Assembly: GCA_030619925.1 (NCBI GenBank)
Contig: JAUXAL010000003.1
Coordinates: 24,692 to 88,691 of the forward strand
DNA from: Phycisphaerae bacterium
GTDB lineage: Bacteria; Planctomycetota; Phycisphaerae; Sedimentisphaerales; Anaerobacaceae
DNA length: 64,000 nucleotides
Direction: 5' to 3'
The position numbers and the translations under genes were made by a program. The notes beneath the pieces are model-generated. The model ran no database searches. It was given only the letters and a program-made list of their open reading frames with translations, and was not told the DNA's origin. This document shows positions 9,002 through 36,775 of this stretch, piece after piece; the stretch's first letter is position 1, and each line of letters starts with the position of its first letter.

Positions 9002-9628
9002 TCACGATTTCATTTGGGCTACGATTTGGCGGGTTTGGGGTGATTGGCTTTGATGTGCTTGTTTGAATGCAGAAGCAGAAGATTGGTTTTGCTTTTTGAA
9101 AAGTTCGTTACCGGTAATAATCTCTTGCAAGGCCTTCGATTTTGTCCTGGTTTCTCTTAAGAACCGAACAGCTCTTGTGCCATAGACCCCGCCCAATAAG
9201 GCACAGATACCAATACCCAACTCCAACACAGAATCAGCTACTTGCCATGCATCAGGCCGATCGGCCCCCTGCTGCAAAGCCGTCCGGGTAAGCTGCCAAT
9301 TCGATTCGGCAAGTATATCCTCAGCAGAGTCAGCCTGTGGAAATTCCTTCGGCAACCCATAATAAGAACTAAACGCCCTGCTCTGCAGCTCACTTAGCTG
9401 CGTTAACGCCTGCAGCTTCTCTGAAGCATTTTCGGCTCTTGCAGTATCGGCGGAAATCGTGGCGGTGCGGTTGTGCAGCCAGGCGTTCTGCCTTTGCACC
9501 TCGGTCGGTGCAAAACGTAGACTATCGCATCCAGCCAGTAGAAAGGCAAAAGTAAGAAGGGGAATCAAACCCAGCCAAAAGGTAACACTTTTTACTTTTA
9601 ATTTTACTGCTAAAATCTTTTTCACCAT
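9002..9628 (-). CDS. Phage-module lipoprotein with a membrane segment
   Basis: 208 residues. A long signal with lipobox (FAFLLAGC) is followed by an Ala/Gln/Glu-rich helical region and a second hydrophobic segment [19 protein letters not shown], then a charged tail. A good aaggagag site precedes the start. It is the last gene of the minus-strand structural module and follows a small membrane/coiled-coil gene; at the end of a phage late operon such a pair often serves lysis (holin or spanin type). That role is inferred only from position and topology. Confidence 0.65.
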
Positions 9629-9657
9629 TTCTCTATTTCTCTCCTTATATGTCGCAG

Positions 9658-9939
9658 TCAGAATGTCTCTTCCGGCATATCCGTCTTAGTAGAAACCTTT
9701 TCGAGTGCCCGCAGGCGATACTCGTATGAAATACTTTGGCTCCAAAGCGACTCGAGCTTTTGCTCAAAATTCTTTTGGCATTGCAGTAGCATAGTTACAT
9801 CTCGCTGCAACAAATCAAGCTGTCTCTGCAAATTGACCCAACTGCCCATAATCAAAGAGGCTAAAAACACCAACTGAATCAGCACAGAAACGTTTATCTG
9901 GCGATTAAGCTGCCACGCTTTGGAATTTGTCCCAGCCAT
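9658..9939 (-). CDS. Small membrane/coiled-coil phage protein
   Basis: 93 residues. One transmembrane helix (VLIQLVFLASLIMGSWV) is followed by a heptad-rich coiled coil (LQRQLDLLQRDVTMLLQ onward). A gaggtg ribosome site is present. Proteins of this type occur at the end of late operons of environmental phages beside lysis genes. Could be a holin accessory protein; no firm function. Confidence 0.6.
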   Translation of the reverse strand: MAGTNSKAWQLNRQINVSVLIQLVFLASLIMGSWVNLQRQLDLLQRDVTMLLQCQKNFEQKLESLWSQSISYEYRLRALEKVSTKTDMPEETF

Positions 9940-9982: not shown

Positions 9983-10318
9983 TTACACCGGTGCGTAAAA
10001 AACGTTCTTGTCACCCACTCTGAACATTACCGCGTATGTTCCCGCCGCCAGCGTTCCCTGCTGCAGAAATGATTCAGCCAAATTGACCGCCTGCGTCTGT
10101 TGGCCTATTTCAACCGGTAGTGAGCCTGCATCACCTATCATTACAGCGACGACATTATAGACATTGTACGACGAATTACTTTTGACCTTAATAGCCCACG
10201 CGGCCGCTCTGGCGCCAGGTGAAGTAACAACTGACACTTCCTGCGTCCCCTCAGAGCCCTCCCGGGCAAGTCTTTCCAGTAGTTGTTGACTATTTGTAAT
10301 ATTTGCTCCGTTGCCCAT
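9983..10318 (-). CDS. Small phage-module protein, unknown
   Basis: 111 residues starting MGNGANITNSQQLLERL; the start is chosen because aaggggctgag lies just upstream, whereas the longer frame runs back into the previous gene. The body is beta-rich with no recognised motif and ends in VMFRVGDKNVFYAPV. It starts 5 bases after the end of the 609-residue gene, so they are coupled. Probably a virion or tail-fibre accessory protein. Confidence 0.55.
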   Translation of the reverse strand: MGNGANITNSQQLLERLAREGSEGTQEVSVVTSPGARAAAWAIKVKSNSSYNVYNVVAVMIGDAGSLPVEIGQQTQAVNLAESFLQQGTLAAGTYAVMFRVGDKNVFYAPV

Positions 10319-10323
10319 AATTC

Positions 10324-12153
10324 TCAGCCCCTTTGTCGAACGATTTTCAAATTCGTACACTGCTTTTCAAAATTCATTTGCACTCGCTCTATCCAGCTTC
10401 TGCTTCGGCTATCGCTCATGCAGGCTAACAGGTCTCTGCTCTCAGGGCTTGTGGTCACTCTGTCGCCGATTCTGTAATCAAACACAAGATATGGCGTCTG
10501 TATATCGACGGTCTCAACAACCTCAGACGAGGCTGCCGCCCTGTGACGGACAAACTCATACAGAGCATCAGAATCATCGACTTCGTCCGGCTCACCGAGC
10601 GCCTCATTGCTGGCTCCTGCAAAGATACTCCAGTCTGAAACCTTGCGATATTTGAACTGACGAGGTAGTGTAATTATATGCTCAACCACAGGAGCTGTTG
10701 AATTGACCGGACCATCAGCAACCACGCAACTTAATCTCTCATCGCTAACTACCGATGCGGTTATCCTGAATTTCAACACTCCTTTCAGAGCGGCTACCCA
10801 GGTGTCGACGTCGAGCTGGTCGCTGCTTAGCCACACTCCACACTCATCGAGCAGGATATTAAAAGCATGAAGATACTGCCACCAATGCAAGCCGTTATCA
10901 AACGACACCTGCAGAAAATAACCCAGCGACTTTTCCTGTTTGTCAGTGGTTAGGGTCGGCCGGAAGCGCCTACGACGATGAGCAAAATTACTGCTCTGGA
11001 AAATCTTCGAAAAGTCAAACGCATCACCCTGATTATACGGAGCGCCACTATAGTGGCCCGCCTCGTTTAGACACCATTTGCGATACACATCTTTTACCTG
11101 ATAGAAATCGGGATTGGTCGAAGGCGAGAATTTATCGTAGTTGGTATCCTCAAGGCCTCCGTCCCAGGCTTTTACCAACTCGAAGGTTGCTTCATAAACT
11201 TTAAAGTCACCCTGGCCAATATACTTGTGCGTTACGGGAAATAAATTTTTTTTACTGTGTAAACCTACTATATTTGTTTTTGAGATGCTGAACTGCTCGC
11301 CGGATCGCTGACAATTCAACTCAACTGTTCTGCCTGTACCATCCTTATAGAACACAATCGCCTGGCCAGGGCCGGTCGGCACAAGGCGGGGAACAAATTT
11401 GAACCTCAAGCCGATCCTCTCACAGCACCGGTGCAGGGCTTCTGCCAGATTTAACCCCGTGACGTCGAGGTCGCGAACCGTCTGGTTCTCGGTCAACGCC
11501 CGCAGTTGCTCAATGCCCGGCGTTTGTAATTTGTTGCTCAGCAAATATTCACATAGCAAATAATCAATTACTTCTGCATAACTCCAGAGCTTGCCTTGCA
11601 ACGGCTCGGCACAAAAAGTTGTATAACTCTTGCCGTTAAATTTTGTCGGGCTGAGACTAGCATTGGCCCTGCCATCCGGATTAAATACGGTATCGAGACT
11701 AGCCAAGAACACACTTGAGCCATCTGCTTTTGCCATGCGCTGGCCATAGGTCGAAACTCGCTTTAGATTTGCGCTGAAATCCCTCGCTACAATTTCCACC
11801 GCTTCACCATCGAGCCCCAGCCTTGTCTCAATGCCTTCTATTTGGCCATCAAAGATTAGAAAGCTAAAAACCGCTACGCCGGGTGCAGTGCCATTGTAAA
11901 CCTGTCGAATGCAAATGGATTTCCCCATAGCAAATAAAGTCTCAATCTCTTCAACAGCTGTTAAGCTGGCGCCCGGGTACGCAGCGGGATTGTAAGCTAA
12001 TCTGGCCCAGCTAAACTCCGGCCAGCCACTACGCACAATCTCTATCGGCTCCAGCACGGGACACAACCTCCCGCCGAGCAAAATTGAAACAGTCGCTGCG
12101 GGAAGTGCCAGTTGTGTTTGTGCTGATTGGAAAAAGTCGATTCTGTTAGACAT
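10324..12153 (-). CDS. Large phage structural protein, tail/baseplate-like
   Basis: 609 residues without a signal peptide, alternating beta-rich stretches. No close family is recognised. The N-terminal third has the feel of a phage baseplate or hub protein (IQVYNG-like strand repeats, FDGQIEGIETRLG, VEIVARDFS), and the middle has a helical part with a Cys pair (HRCCERIGLRFKF). Its place between a fibre-like gene and a small protein supports a tail or receptor-binding role. The start codon sits in an echo repeat (gagacgagagatacgagat). Confidence 0.6.
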   Translation of the reverse strand: MSNRIDFFQSAQTQLALPAATVSILLGGRLCPVLEPIEIVRSGWPEFSWARLAYNPAAYPGASLTAVEEIETLFAMGKSICIRQVYNGTAPGVAVFSFLIFDGQIEGIETRLGLDGEAVEIVARDFSANLKRVSTYGQRMAKADGSSVFLASLDTVFNPDGRANASLSPTKFNGKSYTTFCAEPLQGKLWSYAEVIDYLLCEYLLSNKLQTPGIEQLRALTENQTVRDLDVTGLNLAEALHRCCERIGLRFKFVPRLVPTGPGQAIVFYKDGTGRTVELNCQRSGEQFSISKTNIVGLHSKKNLFPVTHKYIGQGDFKVYEATFELVKAWDGGLEDTNYDKFSPSTNPDFYQVKDVYRKWCLNEAGHYSGAPYNQGDAFDFSKIFQSSNFAHRRRRFRPTLTTDKQEKSLGYFLQVSFDNGLHWWQYLHAFNILLDECGVWLSSDQLDVDTWVAALKGVLKFRITASVVSDERLSCVVADGPVNSTAPVVEHIITLPRQFKYRKVSDWSIFAGASNEALGEPDEVDDSDALYEFVRHRAAASSEVVETVDIQTPYLVFDYRIGDRVTTSPESRDLLACMSDSRSRSWIERVQMNFEKQCTNLKIVRQRG

Positions 12154-12154
12154 A

Positions 12155-12222: not shown

Positions 12223-13815
12223 TCAGACAGTTTCAGTACTCAAAATGTCGATTGCATCCGGATTTGTGGTATCAAGCTGAATTTTTAACTGCGCTGAAGA
12301 ACTATTCTCTACGCCATCTGCATCTTCAGCCCTTATAGTGAACAAGTATCCGCCTGCGCCGAGTGCGCCACTTTGGTAGCTGTAAAACCTTCGTCTCTCA
12401 TAACTGATTTTTGCGAGGGGGTTTTCATAGTCGATTTGCCCCATCCCGCCATCATAATAAACATTGAAACACACTGGCTGCGACTTTTGTTCGAGGGGGC
12501 AATAGAACCAGACAAGCTGTATCTTATTGCCGTTCACTTGTTCGGCCTTTGAACTAAAAATATTACTCGGCTGTGGCTTTTCCAGTTCACCGTTTGCATC
12601 TATTGAAACCTTCGCCGCAGCAGTTAAGGTAAGTTCCTGATAGCCACAGTTGCTGAACCGACGAATAACATAAAAATACGTTGAACTGCTGTTGTGCGGA
12701 ATGTAGCTGGGCGGCGAGATCTCGCAAGCATTCTGCTCGGCCACAGTCAATATGTTCGTAAAATCTATTCGCTCCATACTGGGCCCGCGATAGAGCACAG
12801 AGCAGCCAGCAACACGAACCCAGAACCAACCCAAACTCAGGGTCGTACCCAGCTTAAAAGCATTGGCGGCCATACCATTAAAAAGTGCTTCTCTTAACCA
12901 ACTCCTTTCTATTTCCAGTGAGCTTTCTTCGCCACGAATTGAATTTAGTAGTGCCGCGACATTAGATTTGCTTGCTACAGTTCCATCGGCTTTTCGGATT
13001 GCTTTTGCTGTTGCGCTTAGGGACGATAAAGCCGTCAAAGTGCCCACAAGATTAACGATTGGGCCACCTATCAATCCCGGCCTGATCGCCCTTTCAAACA
13101 TACAAAACGGCTCTCGGTGGAGTTGGGCAATGTCTACGGAGGATAGAACACGATTCCATACACAAATATACTCTATTTTGCCATCAAATGGTCGATGAGT
13201 AATAACCCCTGTGCTTGCATTACCAATCAGTACGTTAGAAGTTGCAGCAAAAAGGGAATTTGGTATAACTCCAGTTAAAGCACCATTATCTAAAATTCCG
13301 TTCTTATAAAAATCCAAAGTTAAGTTTATACCATCAAAAACACCCGCGATTGTTATCCATTCACCTAAAGTTAAAGGTGCTGTTCCCTGACGGTAAATAT
13401 CATTAGCACCTGTACTACTAATATCAAAATAAGGATTACTACCATTAAGAGATGCTACTAATTTCCATTGTCTATCGTTGACTCCAACACTCTCCCATTT
13501 ACTGGCTACTGTTGGATACTGAGCAGCGATAGACTCTAGCCTTATTTTTGCTATGACAGTTAATTGATTTGTAATCTGAAATGCCGGTCCACAATCTATG
13601 TAGTCATCATCTCCCGCCTCAAAATCAATAGCTGACTTGTTATCCCCTTGAATCCAAATTGGTGTATTTACAAATGTCCCTGTATTTCTATGACCGCTCG
13701 AATCAAAAATTTTCTTTCCCGTACCCTCATTCATTGACCAGCAACCGACCAGACCCCGAGCAAGTGGATGGCTTGTATTGAGTAAAGTTCCTCTTGTTGG
13801 TTTAAGCAGTGGCAT
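12223..13815 (-). CDS. LamG/concanavalin-type domain phage fibre or decoration protein
   Basis: 530 residues. Residues about 15-230 form a LamG/laminin-G-like jelly roll: GLVGCWSMNEGTG, DSSGHRNTG, DYIDCG, GEWITIAGVFDG, FDGKIEYICVWNRVLS are the classic motif order. The C-terminus has a fibronectin-III-like segment with YYDGGMGQIDYENPL and GGYLFTIRAEDADGVENSS, which matches a segment in the 263-residue protein encoded at 16372. A carbohydrate-binding fibre or capsid decoration is likely. It overlaps the upstream gene by 14 bases. Confidence 0.75.
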   Translation of the reverse strand: MPLLKPTRGTLLNTSHPLARGLVGCWSMNEGTGKKIFDSSGHRNTGTFVNTPIWIQGDNKSAIDFEAGDDDYIDCGPAFQITNQLTVIAKIRLESIAAQYPTVASKWESVGVNDRQWKLVASLNGSNPYFDISSTGANDIYRQGTAPLTLGEWITIAGVFDGINLTLDFYKNGILDNGALTGVIPNSLFAATSNVLIGNASTGVITHRPFDGKIEYICVWNRVLSSVDIAQLHREPFCMFERAIRPGLIGGPIVNLVGTLTALSSLSATAKAIRKADGTVASKSNVAALLNSIRGEESSLEIERSWLREALFNGMAANAFKLGTTLSLGWFWVRVAGCSVLYRGPSMERIDFTNILTVAEQNACEISPPSYIPHNSSSTYFYVIRRFSNCGYQELTLTAAAKVSIDANGELEKPQPSNIFSSKAEQVNGNKIQLVWFYCPLEQKSQPVCFNVYYDGGMGQIDYENPLAKISYERRRFYSYQSGALGAGGYLFTIRAEDADGVENSSSAQLKIQLDTTNPDAIDILSTETV

Positions 13816-14137
13816 TTAGAGTTATTCCATAAAATTTGTGCTCAAAGTTATACTGGTCGTTGTAATCGGTCTTGGCATTCTGCCAGTTAGCTTTAATTGC
13901 AGCAGCAATCTCAGCTTGGGTCTGGGTGCTCAAAACTACTATATTTTTTGTGATTTCCACCAGCGTACCAGCAGCGAGGGCGTCAATTTCAGTCTGTTGA
14001 AGTTGACTCGCTATTGAACTTTCCCGCGTCGGCACAATCCCAGTTTTATGACTATCTATTGGAATATGGTAAATAAGGTGAGCCTTGCCCTTCCCAGATT
14101 CCGATTGACTAATCTTGCCAATATGAATATCTGCCAT
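13802..14137 (-). CDS. Small phage-module protein, unknown
   Basis: 111 residues with a strong aaggaggcg ribosome site. Contains alternating charged helices (TEIDALAAGTLVEITKNIVV, TQTQAEIAAAIKANWQ). No motif recognised. It lies in the late operon and overlaps the next gene, so a structural or assembly role is inferred from context only. Confidence 0.6.
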   Translation of the reverse strand: MADIHIGKISQSESGKGKAHLIYHIPIDSHKTGIVPTRESSIASQLQQTEIDALAAGTLVEITKNIVVLSTQTQAEIAAAIKANWQNAKTDYNDQYNFEHKFYGITLNATA

Positions 14138-14146: not shown

Positions 14147-14539
14147 TTATGTCGATTGATAGTTCCAGCACTGGACATAGGCTCTTGCATCGTGGCCATC
14201 GGTCGAGCCGGTCTGCTGGAAGCCCAGCCTGAAATGAGCTAAATCCTTAATGATGAAACTTAGCTGCTGTGGGTCGACGCTCTTGTCGCCCTGCATTTCC
14301 CAGATAGGCGTATCGTCATAGTTGGTGCCATCAAGAGAGCCGTAAAGCTTGATTTTTACTTCATCCGTAGGCGTGGCATCGTAGTTGATTTCGACAATGA
14401 CATGAGCACCTTCATAACCATTCGTCTCCAGATCTACGTCTGCCGAATATTCTTCCGTAGTTCCCGAAAGCGTCGTGTATCCATCACCGCTACCTTCAAT
14501 TTGCGTTTGTGCCGCCCAGTTTTTCTTGATTGTTGCCAT
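14147..14539 (-). CDS. Small beta-rich phage structural protein
   Basis: 130 residues preceded by taaggagg. The sequence reads as a jelly-roll/beta-sandwich (GYEGAHVIVEINYD, EVKIKLYGSLDG, HFRLGFQQTGSTDGHDARAYVQ). Proteins of this type are found as decoration or tail-tip components in environmental phages. No specific family is claimed. Confidence 0.62.
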   Translation of the reverse strand: MATIKKNWAAQTQIEGSGDGYTTLSGTTEEYSADVDLETNGYEGAHVIVEINYDATPTDEVKIKLYGSLDGTNYDDTPIWEMQGDKSVDPQQLSFIIKDLAHFRLGFQQTGSTDGHDARAYVQCWNYQST

Positions 14540-14551: not shown

Positions 14552-14947
14552 TTAATCTAATGATACATCCAAATCACCTGCTGCAAATTTCGCCACGTCC
14601 CCACTGCCGATAGCCTTAGATGCGCTTAACGCCCCGTGAGCTAACATATTGTCGCCTGTCGCAGCATCGAACAGAGCAAAGTGGGTTATCGTTCCCCAAC
14701 TGCCGGTTGCTTCGGGAAAGGTAATATCATTAGCATTATCAAGTGCACCACCGGATGCAACGTTCCAGTCGGCGGCCAGGGTTGAAACTCGCGCGTAAGC
14801 ATTGCCGGTCGGCTCAGCTAACCCTGAACCATCATCGGTCGGGTCTGCCGTCGATAGCCCCACATAAATCGTAGGCGGTGTATAACTACCCTTGCCAAAA
14901 ATATGGTCTAAAATCTCATTCTCCCAATAATCTGCGAAACTGCCCAT
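14552..14947 (-). CDS. Phage tail-fibre-like protein
   Basis: 131 residues from MGSFADYWENEILDH, chosen over an upstream ATG because gaggagat precedes it. YTPPTIYVGLSTADPTDDG, the NAYARV stretch and ATGSWGTITHFALFDAATG are the conserved pattern of a widespread phage tail fibre/structural family (single-copy cap-like protein with a W-G-x-I-x-H-F core). A virion component is likely. Confidence 0.72.
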   Translation of the reverse strand: MGSFADYWENEILDHIFGKGSYTPPTIYVGLSTADPTDDGSGLAEPTGNAYARVSTLAADWNVASGGALDNANDITFPEATGSWGTITHFALFDAATGDNMLAHGALSASKAIGSGDVAKFAAGDLDVSLD

Positions 14948-14978
14948 TTTGTATCTCCTCAATTTTCATAGTTTTTTG

Positions 14979-15434
14979 TCAGCTCGGCGTCCTTGTGATA
15001 GTCGCTTCAACGTCGGTAGGGGTATGAGTCAAAAGCACCGTTTGCCCATCGTCATCGTAATATCTGATTTCTCCGGTCGATTTGTTCTGGACGGCCTTGT
15101 TGGCAAGCAACTTGTCAGCAGTCACTTCGCCTACCCCAGACCATACGACTTCGCTACTTCCTATAAGGCTATCACCATCAGCAGGATTAGCTCCGGCCTG
15201 CAAAAATACCTGAACAGAATATCTACCTGCAGGGATATTAGCGTCAAAGTTACCCACATACCGGCTGCCACTCTTGTCTGTAAGGGATATATCGTAATCA
15301 TCCATAGCATGGCCGCCTGTCCCCCAAGCCTCAAAGACTTGCCCTCCAACATACCAGACTTCTCCCGCACTGTTACGAACAACAGCATAAAGCGTATTGC
15401 CAGAGGCGTAATCTATATATATTTCATTTGCCAT
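14979..15434 (-). CDS. Phage structural protein, unknown
   Basis: 151 residues, gtaggag site upstream. The N-terminus MANEIYIDYASGNTLYAVVR with an aromatic beta pattern and a later RYSVQVFLQAGANPADGDS resembles small virion proteins that decorate tails or fibres. TGEIRYYDDDGQTVLLTH near the C-terminus is a typical phage motif for this class. Function inferred from context. Confidence 0.62.
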   Translation of the reverse strand: MANEIYIDYASGNTLYAVVRNSAGEVWYVGGQVFEAWGTGGHAMDDYDISLTDKSGSRYVGNFDANIPAGRYSVQVFLQAGANPADGDSLIGSSEVVWSGVGEVTADKLLANKAVQNKSTGEIRYYDDDGQTVLLTHTPTDVEATITRTPS

Positions 15435-15488: not shown

Positions 15489-16277
15489 TTACACCTCCTC
15501 TGTCCAGGTCCCGTTCTTAGCAATGGTTGCCCAATCGCCGTTGGAATCGGCCACCAAGCTAAGACACTCACCAATTGCATCAGCGGATTTGTACTTGCCT
15601 GCCGTTTGGCCGCTGTCATCTCGGATAGTTCCCGTGCCAGGGTCAACCCGCAACTCGTAAGCCGCCTGGACAGCAAAGCTAAATACTGTCCCCGCAGGCG
15701 CCGAGGTAGGCAGTGTAAGCGTAACTGTCCCGGTGGCGCCGAGGTTGCTGTGAACACTGCCAGATTCCGCAGCCGTAAGCGTATCATCACTGGTATGCGC
15801 CTCGATAGTCTTCTTTACCCCACCAGCCCCGTACGGCATCACAATATTATGACCTGCTCTGCAATCGGTTATTGACTCGATATTCCCGCCGGAGGTGCTT
15901 ACTATTGCCAGCCGAATATGCGGTGCAGCTGTCATATCAGGAAAACTGTTGTATTCGTTGGTTACAAGACTACCGGACGAATCCAGATAGATGTAAATAT
16001 TTTGCTTATCATCCGCTAAAGTGTTGCCCGACGAGCCTTCATAGCTTATCAGTTCCGTACCTAACCAGAACTTGCCCGGCTTTACACCAATGTCAAGACC
16101 GCCTTCATCATAGGCCCTCAAGTCATTCGCCCGCCGCGTGGCCAGCAACAACCGATACAGAAATTTCCGAAACTCCAAATAATAAGGTGCCGTACCGGTT
16201 GCTATATACTCAACACCGGTCTCGCTGTCAGACTGTATGTTTAACAACTCATTGTCAGATGGATACACTTCAGCCAT
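15489..16277 (-). CDS. Phage tail fibre-like protein
   Basis: 262 residues preceded by aaaggagag. The first half (PGKFWLGTELISYEGSSGN, NIYIYLDSSGSL, IRLAIVSTSGG) is the pattern of phage fibre head-binding regions; the C-terminal half is a low-complexity beta domain (GATGTVTLTLPTSAPAGTVF) like those found in fibre tips. Likely a fibre or spike component of the particle encoded by this module. Confidence 0.68.
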   Translation of the reverse strand: MAEVYPSDNELLNIQSDSETGVEYIATGTAPYYLEFRKFLYRLLLATRRANDLRAYDEGGLDIGVKPGKFWLGTELISYEGSSGNTLADDKQNIYIYLDSSGSLVTNEYNSFPDMTAAPHIRLAIVSTSGGNIESITDCRAGHNIVMPYGAGGVKKTIEAHTSDDTLTAAESGSVHSNLGATGTVTLTLPTSAPAGTVFSFAVQAAYELRVDPGTGTIRDDSGQTAGKYKSADAIGECLSLVADSNGDWATIAKNGTWTEEV

Positions 16278-16371: not shown

Positions 16372-17163
16372 CTAAACGCTATCCGCTATTTTGAGCACTA
16401 ATTGATTCGCCTGTTTATCAAACAAAGAAATGCTCACCTTTTCAGCCGGTTTTGCCGCCGGTGTCACCGTGATGGGACCGGTTTCGCTGACGCTGCTTTC
16501 ATTGCCTGCTTCGTCAGCAGTCTTGACAGCAAATTTGTAAACGCCAGCGGACAGAGGTGGGCTTGTCCATTCAATCGTATCAGCATCAAGACCGAACTGA
16601 TCGTTGCTGAAACTGCCCTTTCCAAACCCTACCCCCGCCGCCCAGTCTAACCCGAAATCACCAACGCCGAATCTACTCATTCCGAACCCCGCTTTATCCT
16701 GCCAGGCCAGCCAGATTCTTATCGGCGAATCAGTCAGCGGCTTGTCGTAATCAATTTCACCCGTACCATTGTCAAAGTAGATTTCAGCAGTTGCACCAAT
16801 CGGCAAATTCTGGCTCCGCAACAAACTTATTCTCACACGTCCACTGTCAGCCGGTGATGGAGCAATCTCATTATTAAAATCAGTACCCGCCTGCTCGGCC
16901 TCCACGGCAAAGACTTCGATCCGAACCGCTGACTCGAAAGAGGTAGGTATCGGAACAATCATTTGTCTTTGCTGACTGTCAACAGTTACCCCTGCATATT
17001 GGCCGTTGACATAAACCTGATAGAACATATCGCTTAAGTTTGCCTCGGCAGACCACTTTACCAAAGCTATTCGTGGGATTCCGGCACACTCACCGTTTGC
17101 CCAAATACCAGCGGGCAATTCAAACGCTCTAACCTCTTCTATCCCACTGCTGATAAGTCCCAT
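16372..17163 (-). CDS. Phage protein with fibronectin-III-like domain and Gly-rich segment
   Basis: 263 residues. Two beta-sandwich parts flank an aromatic/glycine-rich insert (GFGMSRFGVGDFGLDW, GVGFGKGSFSNDQFGLD). EIYFDNGTGEIDYDKPLTDS and SAGVYKFAVKTADEAGNES match segments in the C-terminus of the 530-residue LamG protein, so a domain has been duplicated within the operon. A tail-tip or fibre role is likely. Confidence 0.65.
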   Translation of the reverse strand: MGLISSGIEEVRAFELPAGIWANGECAGIPRIALVKWSAEANLSDMFYQVYVNGQYAGVTVDSQQRQMIVPIPTSFESAVRIEVFAVEAEQAGTDFNNEIAPSPADSGRVRISLLRSQNLPIGATAEIYFDNGTGEIDYDKPLTDSPIRIWLAWQDKAGFGMSRFGVGDFGLDWAAGVGFGKGSFSNDQFGLDADTIEWTSPPLSAGVYKFAVKTADEAGNESSVSETGPITVTPAAKPAEKVSISLFDKQANQLVLKIADSV

Positions 17164-17198: not shown

Positions 17199-17564
17199 TT
17201 AAACCAACTGCGTATAAACGATTTCATAATCGACGACTATACCGCCGCCTGCCCGCTCTTTGCTCACCTTGAAAACATCCATCCGAAGATTATCAAATTC
17301 TTCACCGCTACCGGTTACCAGCGTGTGCGTATCGCCGTCCATATACGCCGATATCGCGCTGATTCTGTCATTCATCTGCGATCGGCTTTTTGCCCGCAGC
17401 ACGCCTCTCTGTTTTATCTTCCTGACGCGTCTGCCCAGATCAACACTGAGCACACCGTCCAGTCCCAACACCGCTTTTTCCATCGAGTCCCGTCTGAAAC
17501 TACCTGGCTCGATTTCCAGCTGCTGCTCGTCAAACAGATTTTGTCCATCTAAAGTTAAACCCAT
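17199..17564 (-). CDS. Small phage protein, possibly distal tail or connector
   Basis: 121 residues from MGLTLDGQNLFDEQQLEI; the ATG at 17564 has gggaaa upstream, better than the TTG 21 bases earlier. The sequence ESGSFRRDS-type turn, then VDLGRRVRKIKQRGVLRA and GGGIVVDYEIVYTQLV resembles short tail or connector proteins, but the assignment is weak. Confidence 0.55.
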   Translation of the reverse strand: MGLTLDGQNLFDEQQLEIEPGSFRRDSMEKAVLGLDGVLSVDLGRRVRKIKQRGVLRAKSRSQMNDRISAISAYMDGDTHTLVTGSGEEFDNLRMDVFKVSKERAGGGIVVDYEIVYTQLV

Positions 17565-17595
17565 GTAGAATTTCCCAATCTGCAATTATCAATTA

Positions 17596-18252: not shown

Positions 18253-18288
18253 TTCTTTTAGCTCCCTTCTCGTATAACAGGGCTCGTC

Positions 18289-19554: not shown

Positions 19555-19606
19555 TAGTTGTCCGTTCGTAGTTCTTAGTCTATGAACTACGAACTATGAA
19601 CTCAGA
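19555..19606. repeat. Echo repeat ctatgaactacgaac
   Basis: Alternating words agtagttgtccgttcgtag, ctatgaactacgaac, tatgaactc fill the gap between scaffold and capsid genes. A second copy lies at 20140-20212 between portal and scaffold. Confidence 0.65.
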
Positions 19607-28102: not shown

Positions 28103-28555
28103 GCCGAAGACCGCCCACAGACCAAGAACGTACAGAATAAGGAAAGCCCGCTTACTTCCGCTTCGGCTCTCAGCGTGTTTTTCACTCCCACATCTGTGTA
28201 AACACGTCCCAACCTTACTCTCAACAGCGCACTCAACCGTTATGATCCTGGCATTTTTGTTTGATTTTGGACAATTCAATAAACCGGTTGCATAAATTTG
28301 GCCAAAAATCAATCAAATCCGCAGGCTGGAGCGAAGCGAAAGTCCTGAATCCGCCAACGGTGGATGAAGGATCTGGGTCGCGTAAGCTTAATTTCAATCA
28401 TTTATGCAGGTAGTTGCGCAGAAAAACAAGATTTTTTGAAAATTTTTTTATTCAGTTCTGCATAAGGACTTAGGGGAATACGGGGCCTGAAAAATCGCTC
28501 AATTTTCGCATCAAATCCACAGGTACGTCTAATTATAGAGAGAAAGCGGGGCGGA
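28103..28555. other. Gene-free stretch before the TerS-like gene
   Basis: 450 bases with no convincing frame. It holds a stretch (ctggagcgaagcgaaagtcc, 28327 on) related to the gagcgaagcgaagaatc repeats, plus an AT-rich block before the next gene. No tRNA seen. Confidence 0.4.
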
Positions 28556-29038
28556 GTGACGTCAAGTAAGAACAATAAGCAGATGACCCAGAAAAAGCAA
28601 TTGACTAAAAGACAGCTTGCAGTGATAGAGGATTTGTTCAGCGACTTCTCGATGGTCGACGAGCAGGCGGTACTGGACAAGCACAGGGTAAGCAGAAACG
28701 TCTACAACAAATGGCTGGCCGAAGCCTCGTTCGCCGAACAGTTAGACCGGCGTATCGCAGCAGCCCATCGTCAAAGCGCTGCCTTGATTGCACGGTATGC
28801 CCCGCTGGCAGCAGCCAAACTTGTGCAGCTTACCGACTCGGACAAAGAAGAGACCGCCCGCAAGGCCTGCTTGGATATTATCTCCATGCCGCAAATCGCT
28901 CGCACCTGCGGTAACGCCAGTGCAGGCGCAAATCTCAAGTCGCAAATGGCAAATCAGAAATCGCAAATCGCTCCGCAGCTTTCAGACCAAACTGTCGGCA
29001 GACTGTTAGCCATCTTAGCAGAAGAAAAAAATGATTAA
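28556..29038 (+). CDS. Terminase small subunit-like HTH protein
   Basis: 160 residues from GTG (an ATG 27 bases on is also possible). N-terminal HTH: LTKRQLAVIEDLFSDFSMVD, then EQAVLDKHRVSRNVYNKWLA, the pattern of small terminase/phBC6A51-type DNA-binding proteins, followed by a long helical oligomerisation region. The stretch NLKSQMANQKSQIAPQ is encoded by an echo repeat (28929-28970). The large subunit lies 6.2 kb downstream, separated by two carbohydrate genes. Confidence 0.65.
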   Translation: MTSSKNNKQMTQKKQLTKRQLAVIEDLFSDFSMVDEQAVLDKHRVSRNVYNKWLAEASFAEQLDRRIAAAHRQSAALIARYAPLAAAKLVQLTDSDKEETARKACLDIISMPQIARTCGNASAGANLKSQMANQKSQIAPQLSDQTVGRLLAILAEEKND

Positions 29039-29090: not shown

Positions 29091-29156
29091 TAAACTATAA
29101 TAAGATATGGCTTGGTTCCCGCGGAACCGGGACCCTTCAAAAAGGAGCATAGAAAT

Positions 29157-30608
29157 ATGACACTCACTAACACACGACGCGACTTTCTAAAGGCTATGGG
29201 TATGGGGGCAGCAGCACTGGCAATACCGCGATGGCTTTGGGCCGGACAAGTGCCAGATTCCCGCGAAGCGGGGTCCCCATCAGCTCGCAAACCTAACATC
29301 GTTCTGATTATGGTCGATGACCTCGGCTACGGCGACCTGTCGAGCTATGGCGCAAAGGACATGAAGACGCCGAACATCGACAAGCTCGTTGCGACGGGTA
29401 TGCGGTTCGATAACTTCTACGCCAACTGTCCGGTTTGCTCACCCACGCGTGCATCGCTGCTGACCGGCAAATACCCGGACCTGGTCGGCGTGCCGGGGGT
29501 AATCCGCACACACCCAGCCAATAGCTGGGGGCATTTGGCTGGTAGCCGGCACGCCGGGGTATTGCTGCCGAAACTGCTCAAACGAGCCGGCTACCACACC
29601 GCTATCGTCGGCAAATGGCACCTCGGTCTGGCCTCACCGAACAAGCCTAACGAGCGAGGCTTCGACCACTTTCACGGCTTCCTCGGCGATATGATGGATG
29701 ACTACTACGACCATCGTCGTCACGGAATCAACTATACGCGGCTGAACGATACAGAAATCGACCCGAAAGGCCATGCTACCGACCTGTTCACACAGTGGTC
29801 TATCGATTACATCCACCAGCGTGCCGGCTCAAGGCAGCGACGCCGCAAAGCCCGGACCCAGCCGTTCTTCTTGTACCTCGCCTACAACGCCCCGCACACG
29901 CCGATCCAGCCGCCGAAGGACTGGCTCCAACGGGTCAAGAACCGCGAAAAGGACATCACCGAGAAACGTGCCGCCCTTGTCGCTCTAATCGAACATCTCG
30001 ACGACGGCATCGGCAGGGTGATGGCGGCACTGAAAGACTCCGGTCTCAGCAAGAACACGCTGGTTATTTTCACTTCCGACAACGGCGGCCAACTTCACAT
30101 CGGGGCCAACAACGGCCCACTCAGAGGTGGTAAGCAGGACATGTACGAGGGCGGTATTCGCGTTCCGATGTGCGCGGTCTGGCCAGGCAGAATCAGGCCC
30201 AGCTCCCGCAGCGACGGTGTTGCGCTGACTATGGACCTGTTCCCGACCATTTGCGAAGCAGCCGGTGCTGCTCTGGATTACGAGGTCAATGGCCGAAGCA
30301 TCCTGCCGAGGCTGCTCGGCAAGTACCAGTCCGCCGAAGATCGCTTCCTGTTCTGGGTGCGACGTGAAGGCGGCGGCTACGGCGGCCGGGCTTATTATGC
30401 CGCCCGCTACGGTGACTACAAACTTCTGCAGAATAGTCCCTTTGAGCCGTTGCAACTCTACAACCTAAAAGACGATCCACAGGAAAACCATCCCTTGGAC
30501 AGAAAGCACAGGATGTATCAGAGACTCTTCACCGCCCTTCGTAATCACATCATCGAAGTCGGCGCAGTACCCTGGCAGAAATATCCCGTCAAGCTAAATG
30601 ACTCGTAG
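29157..30608 (+). CDS. Tat-exported sulfatase
   Basis: 483 residues from MTLTNTRRDFLK (ATG at 29157, aaaggag upstream); the twin-arginine RR-D-F-L-K signal is followed by GAAALAI. Sulfatase core: NIVLIMVDDLGYGDLSSYG (metal site) and the formylglycine signature C94-S-P-T-R; HDK-type residues appear in KWHLGL and DNGG. Residues about 37-46 (DSREAGSPSA) lie on a palindrome gattcccgcgaagcgggg and look inserted. Together with the following fusion enzyme it forms a two-gene carbohydrate unit placed between phage packaging genes. Confidence 0.93.
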   Translation: MTLTNTRRDFLKAMGMGAAALAIPRWLWAGQVPDSREAGSPSARKPNIVLIMVDDLGYGDLSSYGAKDMKTPNIDKLVATGMRFDNFYANCPVCSPTRASLLTGKYPDLVGVPGVIRTHPANSWGHLAGSRHAGVLLPKLLKRAGYHTAIVGKWHLGLASPNKPNERGFDHFHGFLGDMMDDYYDHRRHGINYTRLNDTEIDPKGHATDLFTQWSIDYIHQRAGSRQRRRKARTQPFFLYLAYNAPHTPIQPPKDWLQRVKNREKDITEKRAALVALIEHLDDGIGRVMAALKDSGLSKNTLVIFTSDNGGQLHIGANNGPLRGGKQDMYEGGIRVPMCAVWPGRIRPSSRSDGVALTMDLFPTICEAAGAALDYEVNGRSILPRLLGKYQSAEDRFLFWVRREGGGYGGRAYYAARYGDYKLLQNSPFEPLQLYNLKDDPQENHPLDRKHRMYQRLFTALRNHIIEVGAVPWQKYPVKLNDS

Positions 30609-30632: not shown

Positions 30633-33600
30633 ATGGAAAAGAAAATGTGTGCCTTGAGCATAGTGTCACTTGTGGTTTTGTTGCTTTCGAGTGTTTCTGC
30701 AACCGAGGCACAAACTATCCTTATTGAAGCCGAGGGATTCGACAACCTCGGCGGCTGGGTCGTCGACCAGCAGTTTACCGACCAGATGGGCTCGCCATTG
30801 CTGCTGGCTCACGGTTTGGGTGAGCCGGTCAAAGACGCCACAACGAAGGTGGGGTTTCCAGCCGCCGGCAAGTACCGCCTATGGGTTCGCACTCGCAACT
30901 GGGTGGCACCGTGGAAAGCGCCGGCAGCGCCGGGCAGGTTCCAGCTGCTCATCGACGGTGTGCCCCTTGGAACCATCTTCGGCACCAAAGGAGCAAAGTG
31001 GCACTGGCAGGATGGCGGCACAATCGAGATTACAAACAAGCAGGTTACCGTCGCCCTGCACGATCTGACCGGCTTTGAAGGCCGATGCGATGCAATTGTC
31101 TTTACGGCCGATACCGACCCGGCCCCACCAAATAAGGGCGAGCGAATGGCAACCTTCCGCCGAAAGATGCTTGGGCTGCCTGACGAGCCGGAAGATGCCG
31201 GCCAATTCGACCTGGTCGTGGTCGGTGGCGGTATTGCCGGCACGTGTACGTCTATCTCAGCGGCCCGGCTGGGACTACAAGTAGCATTGATACAGAACCG
31301 TCCCGTTCTTGGCGGAAATAACAGCTCGGACGTCCGCGTCCATCTCGGAGGCGAGATTAACCTTCCGCCTTATCCAGCTCTCGGAAATATCGTCAAGGAA
31401 CTCGACTCGGGAAAGAGGGGAAATGCCAAGCCGGCCGCAAACTACGACGACCAGAAAAAGCTCCGAGTCGTCGGAACTGAGAAAAACATACATCTGTTTT
31501 TGAATATGCACGCATTCAAGGTCGAAAAGCAGGGCGATGGGATTTCGGCCGTCATCGCCAAACACATTCGAAACGGTAAGGAGCTGCGATTTGCCGCACC
31601 GCTGTTTGCTGACTGCACCGGTGACGGTAGCGTCGGTTATCTCGCCGGCGCCGAATACCGTATGGGACGTGAAGGCAGAAATCAAACCGGCGAGTCACTG
31701 GCGCCGCAAGAGCCTGACAAAATGACTCTGGGCGCATCGGTCCAGTGGTATTCCGTCGAAACCGACAAACCCACGAGCTTTCCGGATTGCCCCTGGGCAC
31801 TGCAGTTCACCGAAGAAAGCTGTCAGCACACCACCAGAGGCGACTGGGACTGGGAAACCGGACTGCACCGCAACCAGATTACCGAATTTGAGTACATTCG
31901 TGATCACGCTTTTCGTGCAATCTATGGCAACTGGGCCTTTCAAAAAAACAGCCGCGACAAAGCAAAATACGCCAATCGCAAACTCGAATGGGTAGCTTAT
32001 GTCGGCGGCAAACGCGAATCCCGCCGACTGCTCGGCGATGTTATCCTGCAACAGCAGGACATCCAGCAGCAGAGACAGTTCCCCGATGTGTTCGTGACAA
32101 CCACATGGACTATCGACCTGCACTACCCGGACCCTGAAAACTCCAGACACTTCCCAGGCGAGGAATTCCGCTCGATTGCCAAATTCACTCACATAGACCC
32201 GTATCCGATACCCTACCGTTGCCTCTACTCTCGAAACATCGAGAACCTGATGATGGCAGGGCGGTGCATCAGCGTCACCCACGTGGCGCTTGGTACGGTC
32301 CGCGTGATGCGGACTTGCGGCATGATGGGCGAGGTCGTTGGGATGGCTGCATCGCTGTGCAAAAAGCACAACGCCAGTCCTCGCGGCGTCTACCAACACC
32401 ACCTGGACGAGCTCAAGCAACTGGCCAAACGCGGCGTCGGGCCGTCAGCGACTGTGGTCAGCCCCTGCGGTGCCGGGCCCGGCAAAACGACAGACGACCA
32501 AGCCTTCAAGCAGGCCGCAGAGAACGGACACCTTGCCAATGAAGGTTTTGTTCGCTGCCGAAAGTTCGTCAAAGGCTGGCTGAAACACGCCGACCCAACA
32601 ACCGGGTTAATTCCCAGAAACTTAAACCGAGACAAGAACATCTGGAATGCCAAGGACAGCGCCGCAGACAATTACCCTTTTATGGTTCTTACCGCAGCTA
32701 TTACAGACCGGCCGCTCTTCGAGGGCCGTATGCTCGATATGCTCCGCACCGAAACAAAACTCACATCCCGCATCGCAAGCCTGCCGGATACATATTCTTT
32801 CTCCAAACAGAGCTTCCACGACGCACAGCCCGACATCGACCGTATTATCTTCGGAGCTTCGGAGTATATCAAAGACGGCCTGCTGCCACTAACCGAATGG
32901 CTCGGACCGGCACCCTGGTGCGAGCGTATGATTGGGATGCTGGACGATATGTGGAAGCACGCACCGGTTGAAACCAAATATGGACGGATCGTCTCCACAA
33001 ACCAGGAAATCAACGGTGAGATGCTCCAGGCGCTCTCCCGTATCTATTGGATGACCGGCGAAGCCAAATACCTCGACTGGGCCATCCGCCTGGGCGACTA
33101 TCATCTGCTGGGCGGCCACCACCCCACTAAAGATCAAGACAGACTATCACTTGATGACCACGGCTGTGAGATAGTCTCCGGACTCTGTGAGCTGTACGCA
33201 ACAGTTAGCTTTGCCAAACCTGCGAAGAAGCGGGCCTATCAAAAACCCATCCACGAGATGCTCGGCCGTATTTTAGAGATTGGCATCGATGAGCACGGCT
33301 TATTCTATGAATGGGTCAATTGCAAGACCGGCGAACACGCCGAGGCCCTTACCGACAACTGGGGCTACAATCTAAACGGCTTCTACACCGTGTATCTGAT
33401 CGACAAAACCCGGGCCTACCGCCGGGCCGCGCGAAAAGCACTCGGCAACCTCAAGACCCACTATAGCGACTACAAATGGGAAGGAGGTCGTGCCGACGGC
33501 TACGCCGATTCCATCGAAGGCGGCATCAATCTCTACAACCGCGAGCCTGTACCAACCGCCGCCGAATGGCTCGATAGCCAAACGCGTATCATGTGGAACA

Positions 33601-35060
33601 TCCAGAAGCCCGACGGAATCGTCGAGGGCTGGCACGGCGACGGCAACTTCGCCAGAACCACAATAATGTACTGCCTCTGGAAAACCAAAGGCCTGACCAT
33701 CAGACCCTGGCGAGAAGATGTCGTCTTTGGGGCCGTTCAGGATGGCGACATTCTCAAAATCAGTATTCGTGCGGACAAAGACTGGCGAGGGAAAATCCTC
33801 TTCGACACGCCGCGCCATCAGACAATTATGAAGATGCCTCTTGACTGGCCGCGAATTAACCAATTCCCGGAATGGTTCACCGTCGAGGCAAAGAAACACT
33901 ATGCCGTTCACGACCTAACGTCCGATTCGACAGCAACATACACAGGCAGGCAATTGCGGGACGGGATGTCGGTGGAGTGTAAGCCAGGTGCCCAGTTGCG
34001 TCTGTTGGTAAAACCCGCGACGGCAGCGGGGCACTTAAAACCGGCCAATCCGAAGGAGCTGGTCAAGACGGTGGCCGACGGCGTGCTACGTGACTTTCCC
34101 GACCCGCCCCAATTCAACTGGGGCCAGGGGGTTCTGATGGCGGGCATGATGCGGGCGTACGAACTGACGCAGGACAAGCGGTACCTGAAGTTCGTCCGCA
34201 ATTTCGGCAACCATTCGTACAGGCAGGGCATCTGGCCAATCCTGCGCAAGCGCGGTTACTGCGGCCATTGGGGTCCCGGCTTTGCAGTGTTGATGCTCTA
34301 CGAAGCTACGGGAAACAAACGTTACCTGAGTCTCTCCGAGGAAATCAACCAGTTCATGCTCGGCGAGGCTGAGCGGACCAGAGACGGCGGTCTAAGCCAT
34401 TTTAACGGCAAACCGCAACTCTGGGTCGACACGCTTGCCATGTGTTGTCCGGTGTTCTCATATTTGGCCGGAATCACAAACCGGCCGATATTGCAGCAGG
34501 AGGCAGTCAGCCAACTGGAAATCTTTGCCAAACATCTGCAAGACCCTGAGACGGGACTGTTCTACCACATGTGGGATGAGACGAGCGGCGAGCGGACACC
34601 GAGCTTCTGGGGCCGAGGCAACGGCTGGGTCGTGATGTCGTACGCAGAAGTACTCAAGCATGAAGAGCCAGACTCAGCGAGCCGGGCCCGCCTAGTTAAG
34701 GCTTTCAAGAAACAACTGACGAGCATCGTACGCTTACAGGACGCCAAGAGCGGCCTGTGGCATACGGTACTCGATGCCCCGGACAGCTACCTGGAAACCT
34801 CGGCATCAGCTATGTTCCTCTACGGGATGGCCCAGTGTCGGAACCTGAACTTAATGGAAGTATCTTGCACCGACACAATGCGCAAAGCCTGGGCCGGCCT
34901 GGCCGGTCAGGTCGATGCCGAAGGCCGCATCATCGGCGTCTCGGCTGGCACCGGCCCCAGTGGAAAGCCGGGATATGTCGCCCGTAAAGTCGGAACCTAC
35001 ACCTGGGGAACCGGTGCTTTCCTGTTGGCTGCGTGTGCCTACGCAGAGAGTGGACTGTAA
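30633..35060 (+). CDS. Secreted FAD-dependent oxidoreductase fused to two glycosidase-type domains
   Basis: 1475 residues, gggaggt site and signal peptide (MEKKMCALSIVSLVVLLLSS). Order: a beta-sandwich carbohydrate-binding-like region (28-165); an FAD-dependent oxidoreductase (DLVVVGGGIAGT, GGGIAG 198-203, to about 630); an alpha/alpha-barrel-like middle domain (about 650-1110); and a GH105/GH88-like unsaturated rhamnogalacturonyl hydrolase domain (about 1150-1475) with D1266 in WVDTL and WGRGNGW (1326-1332). Planctomycetes are rich in such FAD proteins (PF12831). The three catalytic parts in one chain could oxidise and cleave the same oligosaccharide. Located in the envelope or outside. Confidence 0.82.
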   Translation: MEKKMCALSIVSLVVLLLSSVSATEAQTILIEAEGFDNLGGWVVDQQFTDQMGSPLLLAHGLGEPVKDATTKVGFPAAGKYRLWVRTRNWVAPWKAPAAPGRFQLLIDGVPLGTIFGTKGAKWHWQDGGTIEITNKQVTVALHDLTGFEGRCDAIVFTADTDPAPPNKGERMATFRRKMLGLPDEPEDAGQFDLVVVGGGIAGTCTSISAARLGLQVALIQNRPVLGGNNSSDVRVHLGGEINLPPYPALGNIVKELDSGKRGNAKPAANYDDQKKLRVVGTEKNIHLFLNMHAFKVEKQGDGISAVIAKHIRNGKELRFAAPLFADCTGDGSVGYLAGAEYRMGREGRNQTGESLAPQEPDKMTLGASVQWYSVETDKPTSFPDCPWALQFTEESCQHTTRGDWDWETGLHRNQITEFEYIRDHAFRAIYGNWAFQKNSRDKAKYANRKLEWVAYVGGKRESRRLLGDVILQQQDIQQQRQFPDVFVTTTWTIDLHYPDPENSRHFPGEEFRSIAKFTHIDPYPIPYRCLYSRNIENLMMAGRCISVTHVALGTVRVMRTCGMMGEVVGMAASLCKKHNASPRGVYQHHLDELKQLAKRGVGPSATVVSPCGAGPGKTTDDQAFKQAAENGHLANEGFVRCRKFVKGWLKHADPTTGLIPRNLNRDKNIWNAKDSAADNYPFMVLTAAITDRPLFEGRMLDMLRTETKLTSRIASLPDTYSFSKQSFHDAQPDIDRIIFGASEYIKDGLLPLTEWLGPAPWCERMIGMLDDMWKHAPVETKYGRIVSTNQEINGEMLQALSRIYWMTGEAKYLDWAIRLGDYHLLGGHHPTKDQDRLSLDDHGCEIVSGLCELYATVSFAKPAKKRAYQKPIHEMLGRILEIGIDEHGLFYEWVNCKTGEHAEALTDNWGYNLNGFYTVYLIDKTRAYRRAARKALGNLKTHYSDYKWEGGRADGYADSIEGGINLYNREPVPTAAEWLDSQTRIMWNIQKPDGIVEGWHGDGNFARTTIMYCLWKTKGLTIRPWREDVVFGAVQDGDILKISIRADKDWRGKILFDTPRHQTIMKMPLDWPRINQFPEWFTVEAKKHYAVHDLTSDSTATYTGRQLRDGMSVECKPGAQLRLLVKPATAAGHLKPANPKELVKTVADGVLRDFPDPPQFNWGQGVLMAGMMRAYELTQDKRYLKFVRNFGNHSYRQGIWPILRKRGYCGHWGPGFAVLMLYEATGNKRYLSLSEEINQFMLGEAERTRDGGLSHFNGKPQLWVDTLAMCCPVFSYLAGITNRPILQQEAVSQLEIFAKHLQDPETGLFYHMWDETSGERTPSFWGRGNGWVVMSYAEVLKHEEPDSASRARLVKAFKKQLTSIVRLQDAKSGLWHTVLDAPDSYLETSASAMFLYGMAQCRNLNLMEVSCTDTMRKAWAGLAGQVDAEGRIIGVSAGTGPSGKPGYVARKVGTYTWGTGAFLLAACAYAESGL

Positions 35061-35239
35061 CCTGGCATCGAAAAGCATCCGTTGGTAGAGTAAGCGGAAA
35101 AGGAGTCGGCGGCTCTTGAGTGTATATTTCCAACAAACACCACATACACGCAAATCAAGATAACTCTTGGCTGTCGTAATTGCATCCCAAAAAGCAACAG
35201 CCAATGTGTAAATGACCTTCAAAATCAGGGGGTATAATA

Positions 35240-36775
35240 ATGACACAATCAGCTTTGGACAAATCGGCAAGTTATGGTGACATCGAAAAAGCGGCTTACG
35301 TTTACTCGGCTCTTCGGCGGACTCGGCCTAAATGTAGGCGGGACCTCAAAAACTACGTCAAAGTCTTCCTGGGCATAGACGTTCCCAACAAGAAAATCTG
35401 CCGGGAGCATAATAGCCCGATGGACTATCTCTGGCACAGTTTCTCCGCTGATTTCACTGCAGACCGAAAAGCTAATGCCGATGCAATAATCTGGGCAAAC
35501 CGCGCCGGCGGCAAAACCGAACTGGCTGCGGTCGCTACGCTTTTGGACTGCGTCTTTAAGCCGGGTTGCCAGGTCAGGATACTCGGCGGCTCAGGTGAGC
35601 AGTCCAGCAGAATGTATGAATACCTGACCGGCTTTCTACGCGACGGCCCGGCACCGCCGGGCTCTATCATACCCACCGTTGGTGGGTTTGAAGAATTTTT
35701 AGTGGCCCCTGCTCTAAAGGCAAAATGCCGCTTTGCCAACGATTCGGCTGTCGAGGTCCTGACGCAATCGGCAACTAGTGTCCGCGGCCAGCACATTCAG
35801 AAGCTCCGCTGCGATGAGGTCGAGCTTTTCGATGAGGATGTTTTTGCAGCCGCCAAGTTCACCACCCAAAGCACCGCTAATCTTCTGGCCGCAATGGAGA
35901 TGATCAGCACAATGCATCGACCTTACGGCTTGATGCAGGCAATAGTCTCGGCTGCACCGCAGTCCGGCACACCGGTCTTCAAATGGTGTGTATGGGAAGT
36001 CATTGAAAAGTGCACCGATAGAAGCTGCTCGCGGTGTCCCTTGTGGGATGACTGTCAGGGCAAAGCCAAAAAGGCTGATGGTTATCTGAAAATTGACGAC
36101 TGCATAACACAGATGCGCCGGGCCAGCAGGGCTGGCTGGGAAGCCGAAATGCTCTGCAAAAGGCCTTCGCTGGAAAATGTAGTTTTTGACGAGTTCGACC
36201 CGGCCAAACACGTCCAGCCAACCGATTATGACCCGAATCTGCCGCTCTACCGCACGCTTGATTTTGGGTTTGTAAATCCCTTTGTGTGTTTGTGGATTCA
36301 GGTTGATAGCGATGGCATAATTCGCGTGATAGATGAGTATGTCCGCAGCAGAGCGACAATTGATGTGCACGCTGAGGAAATAAAAAGCCGCACGGTCGTC
36401 GATGAAGAGCAGGTGGCGGCGACATTTTGCGACCCAGCGGGAAAAAGCGTAAATGATGTCACCGGCACAAGTGTGGTTCGGGAACTGCGAGCACTGGGGA
36501 TAGTGGTGCGATTTAGGCAAAGCGGCATTTTGGAGGGCATTGAACTTATCCGCCGAGCAATTCGCTCAGGCGATGGCCAAAGCACGCTCGTAATCTCGCC
36601 GAGATGCCAGCGTCTGATAGAGGCGCTGCAGTGTTATCATTACCCCGAGCCCGGCAGCACTGCCGGCGGCGAACTACCGCTCAAAGACGGCGTGCACGAC
36701 CACCCCATCGACGCCCTGCGATACTTCTTCGTCAACTACTACCGCACCACCAAAATCACAACCAGACGATACTAA
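35240..36775 (+). CDS. Phage terminase large subunit with a Cys cluster
   Basis: 511 residues, gggggtat upstream. ATPase domain: Walker A NRAGGKT (87-93), Walker B LRCDEVELFDED (D192-E193). The nuclease domain carries RTLDFGF (D341), FCDPAGKS (D398) and DHPIDALRY (D487/D491) acidic residues. Between them lies a Cys cluster C258-x4-C263-x2-C266-x5-C272, plus C288, suggesting a zinc or iron-sulfur site. TerL packages DNA into the head. The portal and capsid genes are on the opposite strand 13 kb away. Confidence 0.9.
   Translation: MTQSALDKSASYGDIEKAAYVYSALRRTRPKCRRDLKNYVKVFLGIDVPNKKICREHNSPMDYLWHSFSADFTADRKANADAIIWANRAGGKTELAAVATLLDCVFKPGCQVRILGGSGEQSSRMYEYLTGFLRDGPAPPGSIIPTVGGFEEFLVAPALKAKCRFANDSAVEVLTQSATSVRGQHIQKLRCDEVELFDEDVFAAAKFTTQSTANLLAAMEMISTMHRPYGLMQAIVSAAPQSGTPVFKWCVWEVIEKCTDRSCSRCPLWDDCQGKAKKADGYLKIDDCITQMRRASRAGWEAEMLCKRPSLENVVFDEFDPAKHVQPTDYDPNLPLYRTLDFGFVNPFVCLWIQVDSDGIIRVIDEYVRSRATIDVHAEEIKSRTVVDEEQVAATFCDPAGKSVNDVTGTSVVRELRALGIVVRFRQSGILEGIELIRRAIRSGDGQSTLVISPRCQRLIEALQCYHYPEPGSTAGGELPLKDGVHDHPIDALRYFFVNYYRTTKITTRRY

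Follow-up and report, generated by a model that had tools for sequence, protein, structure and literature searches.

The 64,000 nucleotides analysed here, referred to below as the window, belong to the 88.7-kb contig JAUXAL010000003.1 of a Phycisphaerae bacterium (Planctomycetota; Sedimentisphaerales; Anaerobacaceae; assembly GCA_030619925.1). Within them, positions 9002-36775 carry two groups of phage-type genes, a head and tail block on the minus strand (9.0-21.7 kb) and a packaging block on the plus strand (25.1-36.8 kb), with genes of host type between and inside them (Table 1). The original prediction for this DNA saw a split, integrase-less locus, either of gene transfer agent (GTA) type or a domesticated virus of long residence. 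Comparison of the window proteins with the Pfam and PHROG families recovers the portal, scaffold, SU10-like capsid and fibre genes of the minus block, the helix-turn-helix (HTH), ABC, ParB, small terminase (TerS)-like and large terminase (TerL) genes of the plus block and the PfkB, Ysc84/SYLF, sulfatase and FAD+GH88 genes of the host, all where that prediction had placed them; the baseplate hub had been missed. Its GNAT gene is in place with a weak family match, and for its Cys mini-protein (28023-28295) Pfam yields nothing at E values up to 0.01.

The head genes keep a regular order. Portal, scaffold, major capsid protein (MCP) and the gene at 17596-18327 follow one another in 56 of the 60 named loci, in 28 of 29 loci of the order and in 11 of 13 from other families; a further 20 of the 80 named loci, two order loci and one other-family locus were too short to count, and some genomes are common to the first two sets. 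The PDB relatives of the MCP include the head proteins 7z45 and 9ny2, and the product of 17596-18327, which finds no match in Pfam, PHROG or PDB sequence comparisons, is a candidate head-tail adaptor. In TerL a GGKT motif, a DE pair and three aspartate positions, which we take to be Walker A, Walker B and the nuclease residues, are invariant in all 18 aligned rows. Four cysteines of the same protein (257, 262, 265 and 271, within residues 257-271) are also invariant in 18 rows, suggesting a metal site. The PHROG-matched residues 15-112 of the TerS candidate look HTH-like, as judged by eye only.

Table 1. Phage-type and host-type features of the two blocks, in order of position in the window
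Feature	Position	Strand	Evidence
Lipoprotein, putative release role	9002-9628	-	lipobox-like in 18/19 rows; second hydrophobic stretch in 19/19
Transmembrane (TM) + coiled-coil-like protein, putative release role	9658-9939	-	hydrophobic segment in 21/21 rows
Small protein after hub	9983-10360	-	conserved in hub-bearing loci
Baseplate / tail hub	10324-12153	-	fold of gp27 / Mu gp44 / VgrG
Lectin-domain protein, probable fibre	12223-13815	-	Laminin_G_3 3.9e-14
Small tail-block protein	13802-14137	-	no family match; relatives in a few f1 loci
Small tail-block protein	14147-14539	-	no family match; relatives in a few f1 loci
GP4 gp80-like fibre protein	14552-14962	-	Gp80 2.7e-44; PHROG head protein 6.7e-31
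Conserved small tail-block protein	14979-15434	-	no confident family; relatives in other loci
Putative fibre-type protein	15489-16277	-	weak beta-sandwich matches; conserved in hub-bearing loci
Ig-like virion protein	16372-17163	-	weak Ig-like Pfam matches; conserved in hub-bearing loci
Small tail-tip-like protein, putative function	17199-17585	-	precedes hub in L170 (long-tailed, prophage-like) and in hub-bearing relatives
Head-tail adaptor candidate	17596-18327	-	position only: after MCP in 59/60 named loci
SU10-type MCP	18375-19529	-	SU10_MCP 1.2e-84
Scaffold protein	19602-20168	-	Phage_scaffold 3.8e-6, under cut-off; between portal and MCP in 60/60 named loci with enough flank
Portal protein	20200-21714	-	SPP1_portal 1.7e-14; PHROG portal 8.3e-22
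PfkB kinase, host-type, synteny kept	22194-23216	-	PfkB 2e-48
SYLF / Ysc84 lipoprotein-like, host-type	23861-24433	-	Ysc84 1.6e-7; phrog_34572 1e-61
HTH regulator candidate	25064-25480	+	several HTH families, best 1.6e-6
ABC ATPase, phage packaging-region type	25527-26174	+	ABC_tran 4.9e-12; 33-37% to ATPases beside phage ParB genes, e.g. SSU5
GNAT-like protein	26177-26965	+	weak Pfam, 0.0075; adjoins ABC in relatives
ParB-domain protein	26969-27715	+	ParB_N 3.6e-8; PHROG 2.7e-14
TerS candidate	28556-29038	+	PHROG terminase small subunit 9.9e-5
Sulfatase, host-type, inside packaging block	29112-30608	+	Sulfatase 7.1e-65
FAD + GH88 protein, host-type, inside packaging block	30633-35060	+	Glyco_hydro_88 1.4e-77; FAD_oxidored 4.9e-73
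TerL	35240-36775	+	Terminase_6C 9.7e-8; PHROG 6.5e-19

Relatives of these genes were sought in the family (n=90 genomes), the order (n=162, of which 67 are clean), a sample of the class (n=398, 285 clean) and a sample of the phylum (n=294). TerL is present in 129 of the order genomes (60 of the clean ones) and the portal in 111 (54 clean), and the MCP in 56 of the family genomes and 173 of the class genomes (137 clean). The control, an HK97-type capsid from a tape-measure-bearing prophage of the same order, was found in 18 of the 162 genomes (10 of the 67 clean), only one other genome exceeding 50% identity. The capsid, portal and packaging genes are thus conserved where an ordinary prophage capsid is not. 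Across the class sample MCP and TerL occur together in 161 genomes, MCP alone in 8, TerL alone in 35 and neither in 194, matches weaker than ~1e-35 (4 of 173 MCP and 29 of 225 TerL genomes) being left out; the Fisher test of this co-occurrence ignores kinship, and many of the genomes are fragmentary. In the phylum sample 45 genomes have the MCP, 15 of them from a single family outside Phycisphaerae, f48. Each of these 15 f48 genomes (e.g. L302-L305) has a single MCP relative, and in L303 large uncharacterised genes come after it; the portal and scaffold profiles find no match in the four f48 loci read, and the system is not claimed there.

The spacing of the two blocks varies widely between genomes. 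The window has them back to back, as do G033, G076 and G084 and the named loci L094, L101 (on the G084 contig), L127, L129 and L130; they lie 36-300 kb apart in G224, G325, G371, G173, G190, G202 and G387, and ~1.1 Mb, 1.0 Mb and 0.7 Mb apart in G029, G144 and G148, respectively. In L120 the core and TerL fall within ~7 kb, and L183 (family f15) unites TerL with head and tail genes in a single cluster. Loci that are far apart in many genomes and adjacent in others, the window included, bear on whether the system could move as one unit, and with halves hundreds of kb apart its packaging as one unit is unlikely. Genes that resemble dnaA by eye adjoin TerL or the head block in families f2, f4 and f7 (L047, L049, L056, L067 and L071), which may place the system close to the origin of replication; other recurring host neighbours, likewise recognised by eye, are aspS near TerL and rpiB between TerS and TerL.

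The host-type genes within the locus are themselves part of its conserved surroundings. Of the 80 named loci, many of which are too short to show it, 19 have PfkB upstream of the head genes, and the sulfatase and FAD+GH88 genes occupy the same place in the packaging block in five other genera (G016, G033, G059, G066 and G084), which marks them as old residents. Relatives of the SYLF-type protein occur in phage genomes, as its strong match to a functionally unannotated PHROG family shows. The echo repeat of the host, an AGTATCG-type heptad, has 29 matches between positions 7642 and 58511 of the window against 0.21 expected (e.g. at 22151-22187, 26888-27003 and 47578-47607), and some of them do fall between or inside phage-type genes, including coding sequence of the packaging block. 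Tyrosine integrases have three matches in the genome and none on the 88.7-kb contig, in a search that covered neither serine recombinases nor att sites; to that extent the locus is integrase-less and lacks the integrase expected beside an active temperate phage.

The history of the genes largely follows that of their hosts. Mantel correlations with rpoB are 0.858 for TerL, 0.848 for the portal and 0.862 for the MCP (27, 29 and 29 shared rows, G059 and G031 having no usable rpoB row), and none of 5000 permutations reached values as high. The gene trees have 11 of 24, 12 of 26 and 10 of 26 splits in common with the rpoB tree, compared with shuffled means of 0.17-0.28, and within family f1 alone the correlations are 0.83, 0.73 and 0.73. 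Inheritance has been long and mostly vertical with the host. The rpoB frames of G161, G016, G159 and G066 (L279, L288, L296 and L297) are ~200 residues longer than those of their relatives and perhaps contain inteins. The ratio of nonsynonymous to synonymous substitution rates (dN/dS, Nei-Gojobori) was calculated for TerL, portal, MCP, scaffold and 17596 in seven genome pairs, not all genes being available in each; it ranges from 0.03 to 0.26, with values of distant pairs near saturation, and rpoB gives 0.02-0.13 in the pairs that have it. Nothing near 1 was found, and most TerL, portal and MCP matches are full length without stops. Judged by these ratios, the system is under purifying selection, as its intact frames had suggested, and it appears to be working.

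Taken together, the wide conservation, the co-occurrence of separate loci, the broad congruence with rpoB and the low dN/dS values largely support the original prediction of a long-resident, still selected locus of GTA or domesticated type. Several features of a GTA are present: a chromosomal, virus-derived capsid, portal and terminase, long vertical inheritance and selection. The system is probably a domesticated prophage that became chromosomal early in Phycisphaerae and whose two halves, one for head and tail and one for packaging, serve a GTA-like purpose. In some cells the HTH protein would activate the blocks. Heads would be assembled on the portal by the scaffold and the SU10-type capsid, and TerS and TerL would fill them with pieces of the host chromosome. 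Delivery could then rely on a short tip, lacking tube and tape measure, that is made up of adaptor, small tail-tip protein, hub and fibres, and the TM/coiled-coil protein and the lipoprotein may help release. PHROG hints that homologues of the TM protein are an Rz-like spanin (0.027) or a holin (0.037) were too weak to be used.

Several observations weigh against the GTA-like reading. The TerS candidate seems to keep a DNA-binding-like part; known GTAs have a TerS without DNA-binding domain, according to PMC11841831. TerL occurs without MCP in the 35 class genomes given above. Presence across species is wide and not universal, whole genera such as g29 (G052-G054) and g10 (G021 and G022) being without the genes, a pattern that fits lineage loss. 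G103 (f2) sides with f1 in the TerL tree and with f7 in the portal tree, and G101 joins G130 in TerL, so some exchange or poor resolution remains. Some genomes show stops or fragments, and the hub is undetected in 21 of 49 clean strong-portal genomes. An MCP 69% identical to that of the window lies among virus-like genes on one contig of the virus collection IMG/VR (L165:5970-7121 on 3300027852_000006), and the IMG/VR scans were seeded with conserved peptides, which diverged viruses can escape.

The tail part differs between lineages. Tape measure, sheath and tube families are absent from the Pfam and PHROG matches of the window proteins scanned, and the combination of sheath and tube without capsid or terminase that typifies tailocins and contractile injection systems is not what is seen, capsid, portal and terminase all being present. 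The earlier suggestion of a short-tailed or tailless particle has to be qualified: this locus has no recognised tube or tape measure and keeps a baseplate hub and fibres, while in other lineages the hub cannot be recognised. In the order, the hub profile matches 87 of the 162 genomes and 37 of the 67 clean ones; in some of these the match comes from other prophages alone. A hand tally of the 49 clean order genomes with a strong portal (five more, with a weak or partial portal, were left out) gives a strong hub in 28: 18 of 21 in f1, 4 of 16 in f2, 0 of 2 in f5, 0 of 3 in f6 and 6 of 7 in f7. The f10 loci keep a gene like that at 17199. Twelve hub-less loci (L032, L048, L050, L052, L053, L056, L058, L060, L062, L063, L065 and L072) have a TM protein and/or a lipoprotein directly after 17596, and loci of other orders such as L176 and L180 are similarly short; they carry a TM/coiled-coil-like protein, and their lipoprotein belongs to a second family. 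In hub-less lineages the tail part has been lost or is unrecognisable, leaving head, terminase and membrane pair. Candidates for a third tail locus in hub-less genomes, from weak hub matches in G119, G121, G013, G128 and G057, were not counted in the system. L167 is prophage-like: PF10145 (5.8e-8) marks a tape measure and PF05065 (3.3e-20) an HK97-type capsid; L170 is also prophage-like, its integrase-like gene judged by eye only, and L169, L171 and L172, which gave profile matches only, were likewise set aside.

Alternatively, capsid and packaging genes may have been domesticated and kept for a role other than transfer, such as a DNA-holding compartment, altruistic lysis, an anti-phage device or the release of protected DNA; the tail-poor lineages would then reveal the core function. 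The hub-less loci with their membrane genes right after the head genes speak for this, and f6 genomes G144, G147 and G148, each clean and assembled as a single contig, yield no match to the hub. However, the hub/fibre block is kept in the 28 genomes tallied above, so that delivery parts are still selected there, and tail parts elsewhere may be unrecognised; we regard a non-transfer role for the system as unlikely, though it is the most probable of the alternatives. That f2, f5, f6 and parts of other orders maintain a tail-poor, DNA-packaging capsid is itself a tentative and somewhat doubtful proposal. Such a form would consist of portal, scaffold, capsid, adaptor, membrane/coiled-coil protein and lipoprotein together with a separately encoded terminase, and it would represent a cellular particle of a new type, packing chromosomal DNA and leaving the cell or staying in it, without a phage tail.

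A long-lived temperate phage lineage, still mobile and common in these hosts, is a considerably less probable account. Ordinary prophages do exist in the order, and the virus-like surroundings of the MCP relative in L165, where the portal and TerL profiles find no match in the examined piece of the contig, mean that L165 may be a real virus. Named phages are distant: the MCP reaches 32% identity over 94% of its length and at most 33% over part, the portal 26% and TerL 35% over one third, and the hub has no match at E 0.01. IMG/VR yields MCP on two contigs (L165 and L166) and the portal on one (that of L166), compared with 305 confirmed MCP stretches in genome contigs, 80 of which are listed. 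Its confirmed TerL stretches number 255, the best 80 of them 25-42% identical over part of the protein. The L166 contig (3300031673_016560; L268:1-1710 and L267 from 10000) is the same locus, its portal gene interrupted by a prophage: a tyrosine integrase (2.2e-20) follows portal codon 149, the portal resumes after ~24 kb, and the two ends share a word of 15 bases. In G001, G012, G013 and G078 there are also portal fragments, which stop near residues 129-153. Judged from these matches, the system is not a circulating virus visible in these collections. The separated loci, conserved neighbours, host-like trees, usual single copy per genome and patchy distribution of the control all speak against a mobile phage.

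A decaying, functionless prophage remnant is more improbable still: the stops and fragments and the missing lifecycle genes would suit it, but the low dN/dS values, the mostly full-length matches and the invariant catalytic motifs set it aside for most lineages. Least plausible of all is a capsid-forming phage satellite. The capsid and terminase genes of some lineages, accompanied by few tail genes or none, would suit it, but the loci lie far apart, the trees are mostly vertical, the housekeeping neighbours are conserved and the contig bears no tyrosine integrase.

Few gene transfer agents are known. A further candidate, spread across a class of Planctomycetota and derived from another type of phage, would imply that phage heads were retained by their hosts on more than one occasion and in ways that are not catalogued, and would provide an independent test of what selection favours. 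A head without recognisable tail in some lineages asks whether delivery is the selected function, and some members sit on single-contig genomes. Separated yet co-inherited capsid and terminase loci with host-like trees offer a search signature for more such systems, and distant GTAs are hard to recognise from sequence, as PMC11841831 points out. A literature search that did not extend to preprints and most subscription papers, and that included PMC13055281, PMC7947584, PMC11841831 and PMC8597652, turned up no account of such a system in Phycisphaerae.

Several parts have counterparts in known systems. Phage SU10 (PDB 7z45) and Sporosarcina phage Lietuvens have the same capsid family but are whole virus genomes, with capsids no more than 33% identical. 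Salmonella SSU5 and Pseudomonas nickie carry an ABC ATPase 33-37% identical to that of the window, with ParB-like genes at the match, there within virus genomes of ~100 kb. The hub shares its fold with Mu gp44, T4 gp27 and VgrG at ~8-14% identity, although here no sheath or tube genes are recognised beside it. The Phycisphaerae system differs from RcGTA, compared here by description only, and from other GTAs in its cargo, which is a prediction, its host phylum, its SU10-type capsid, its SPP1-type portal and its lack of a recognised tube or tape measure, and is apparently of separate origin from them. What it shares with them are packaging and structural genes derived from a prophage, several distant loci, vertical inheritance and no known integration genes.

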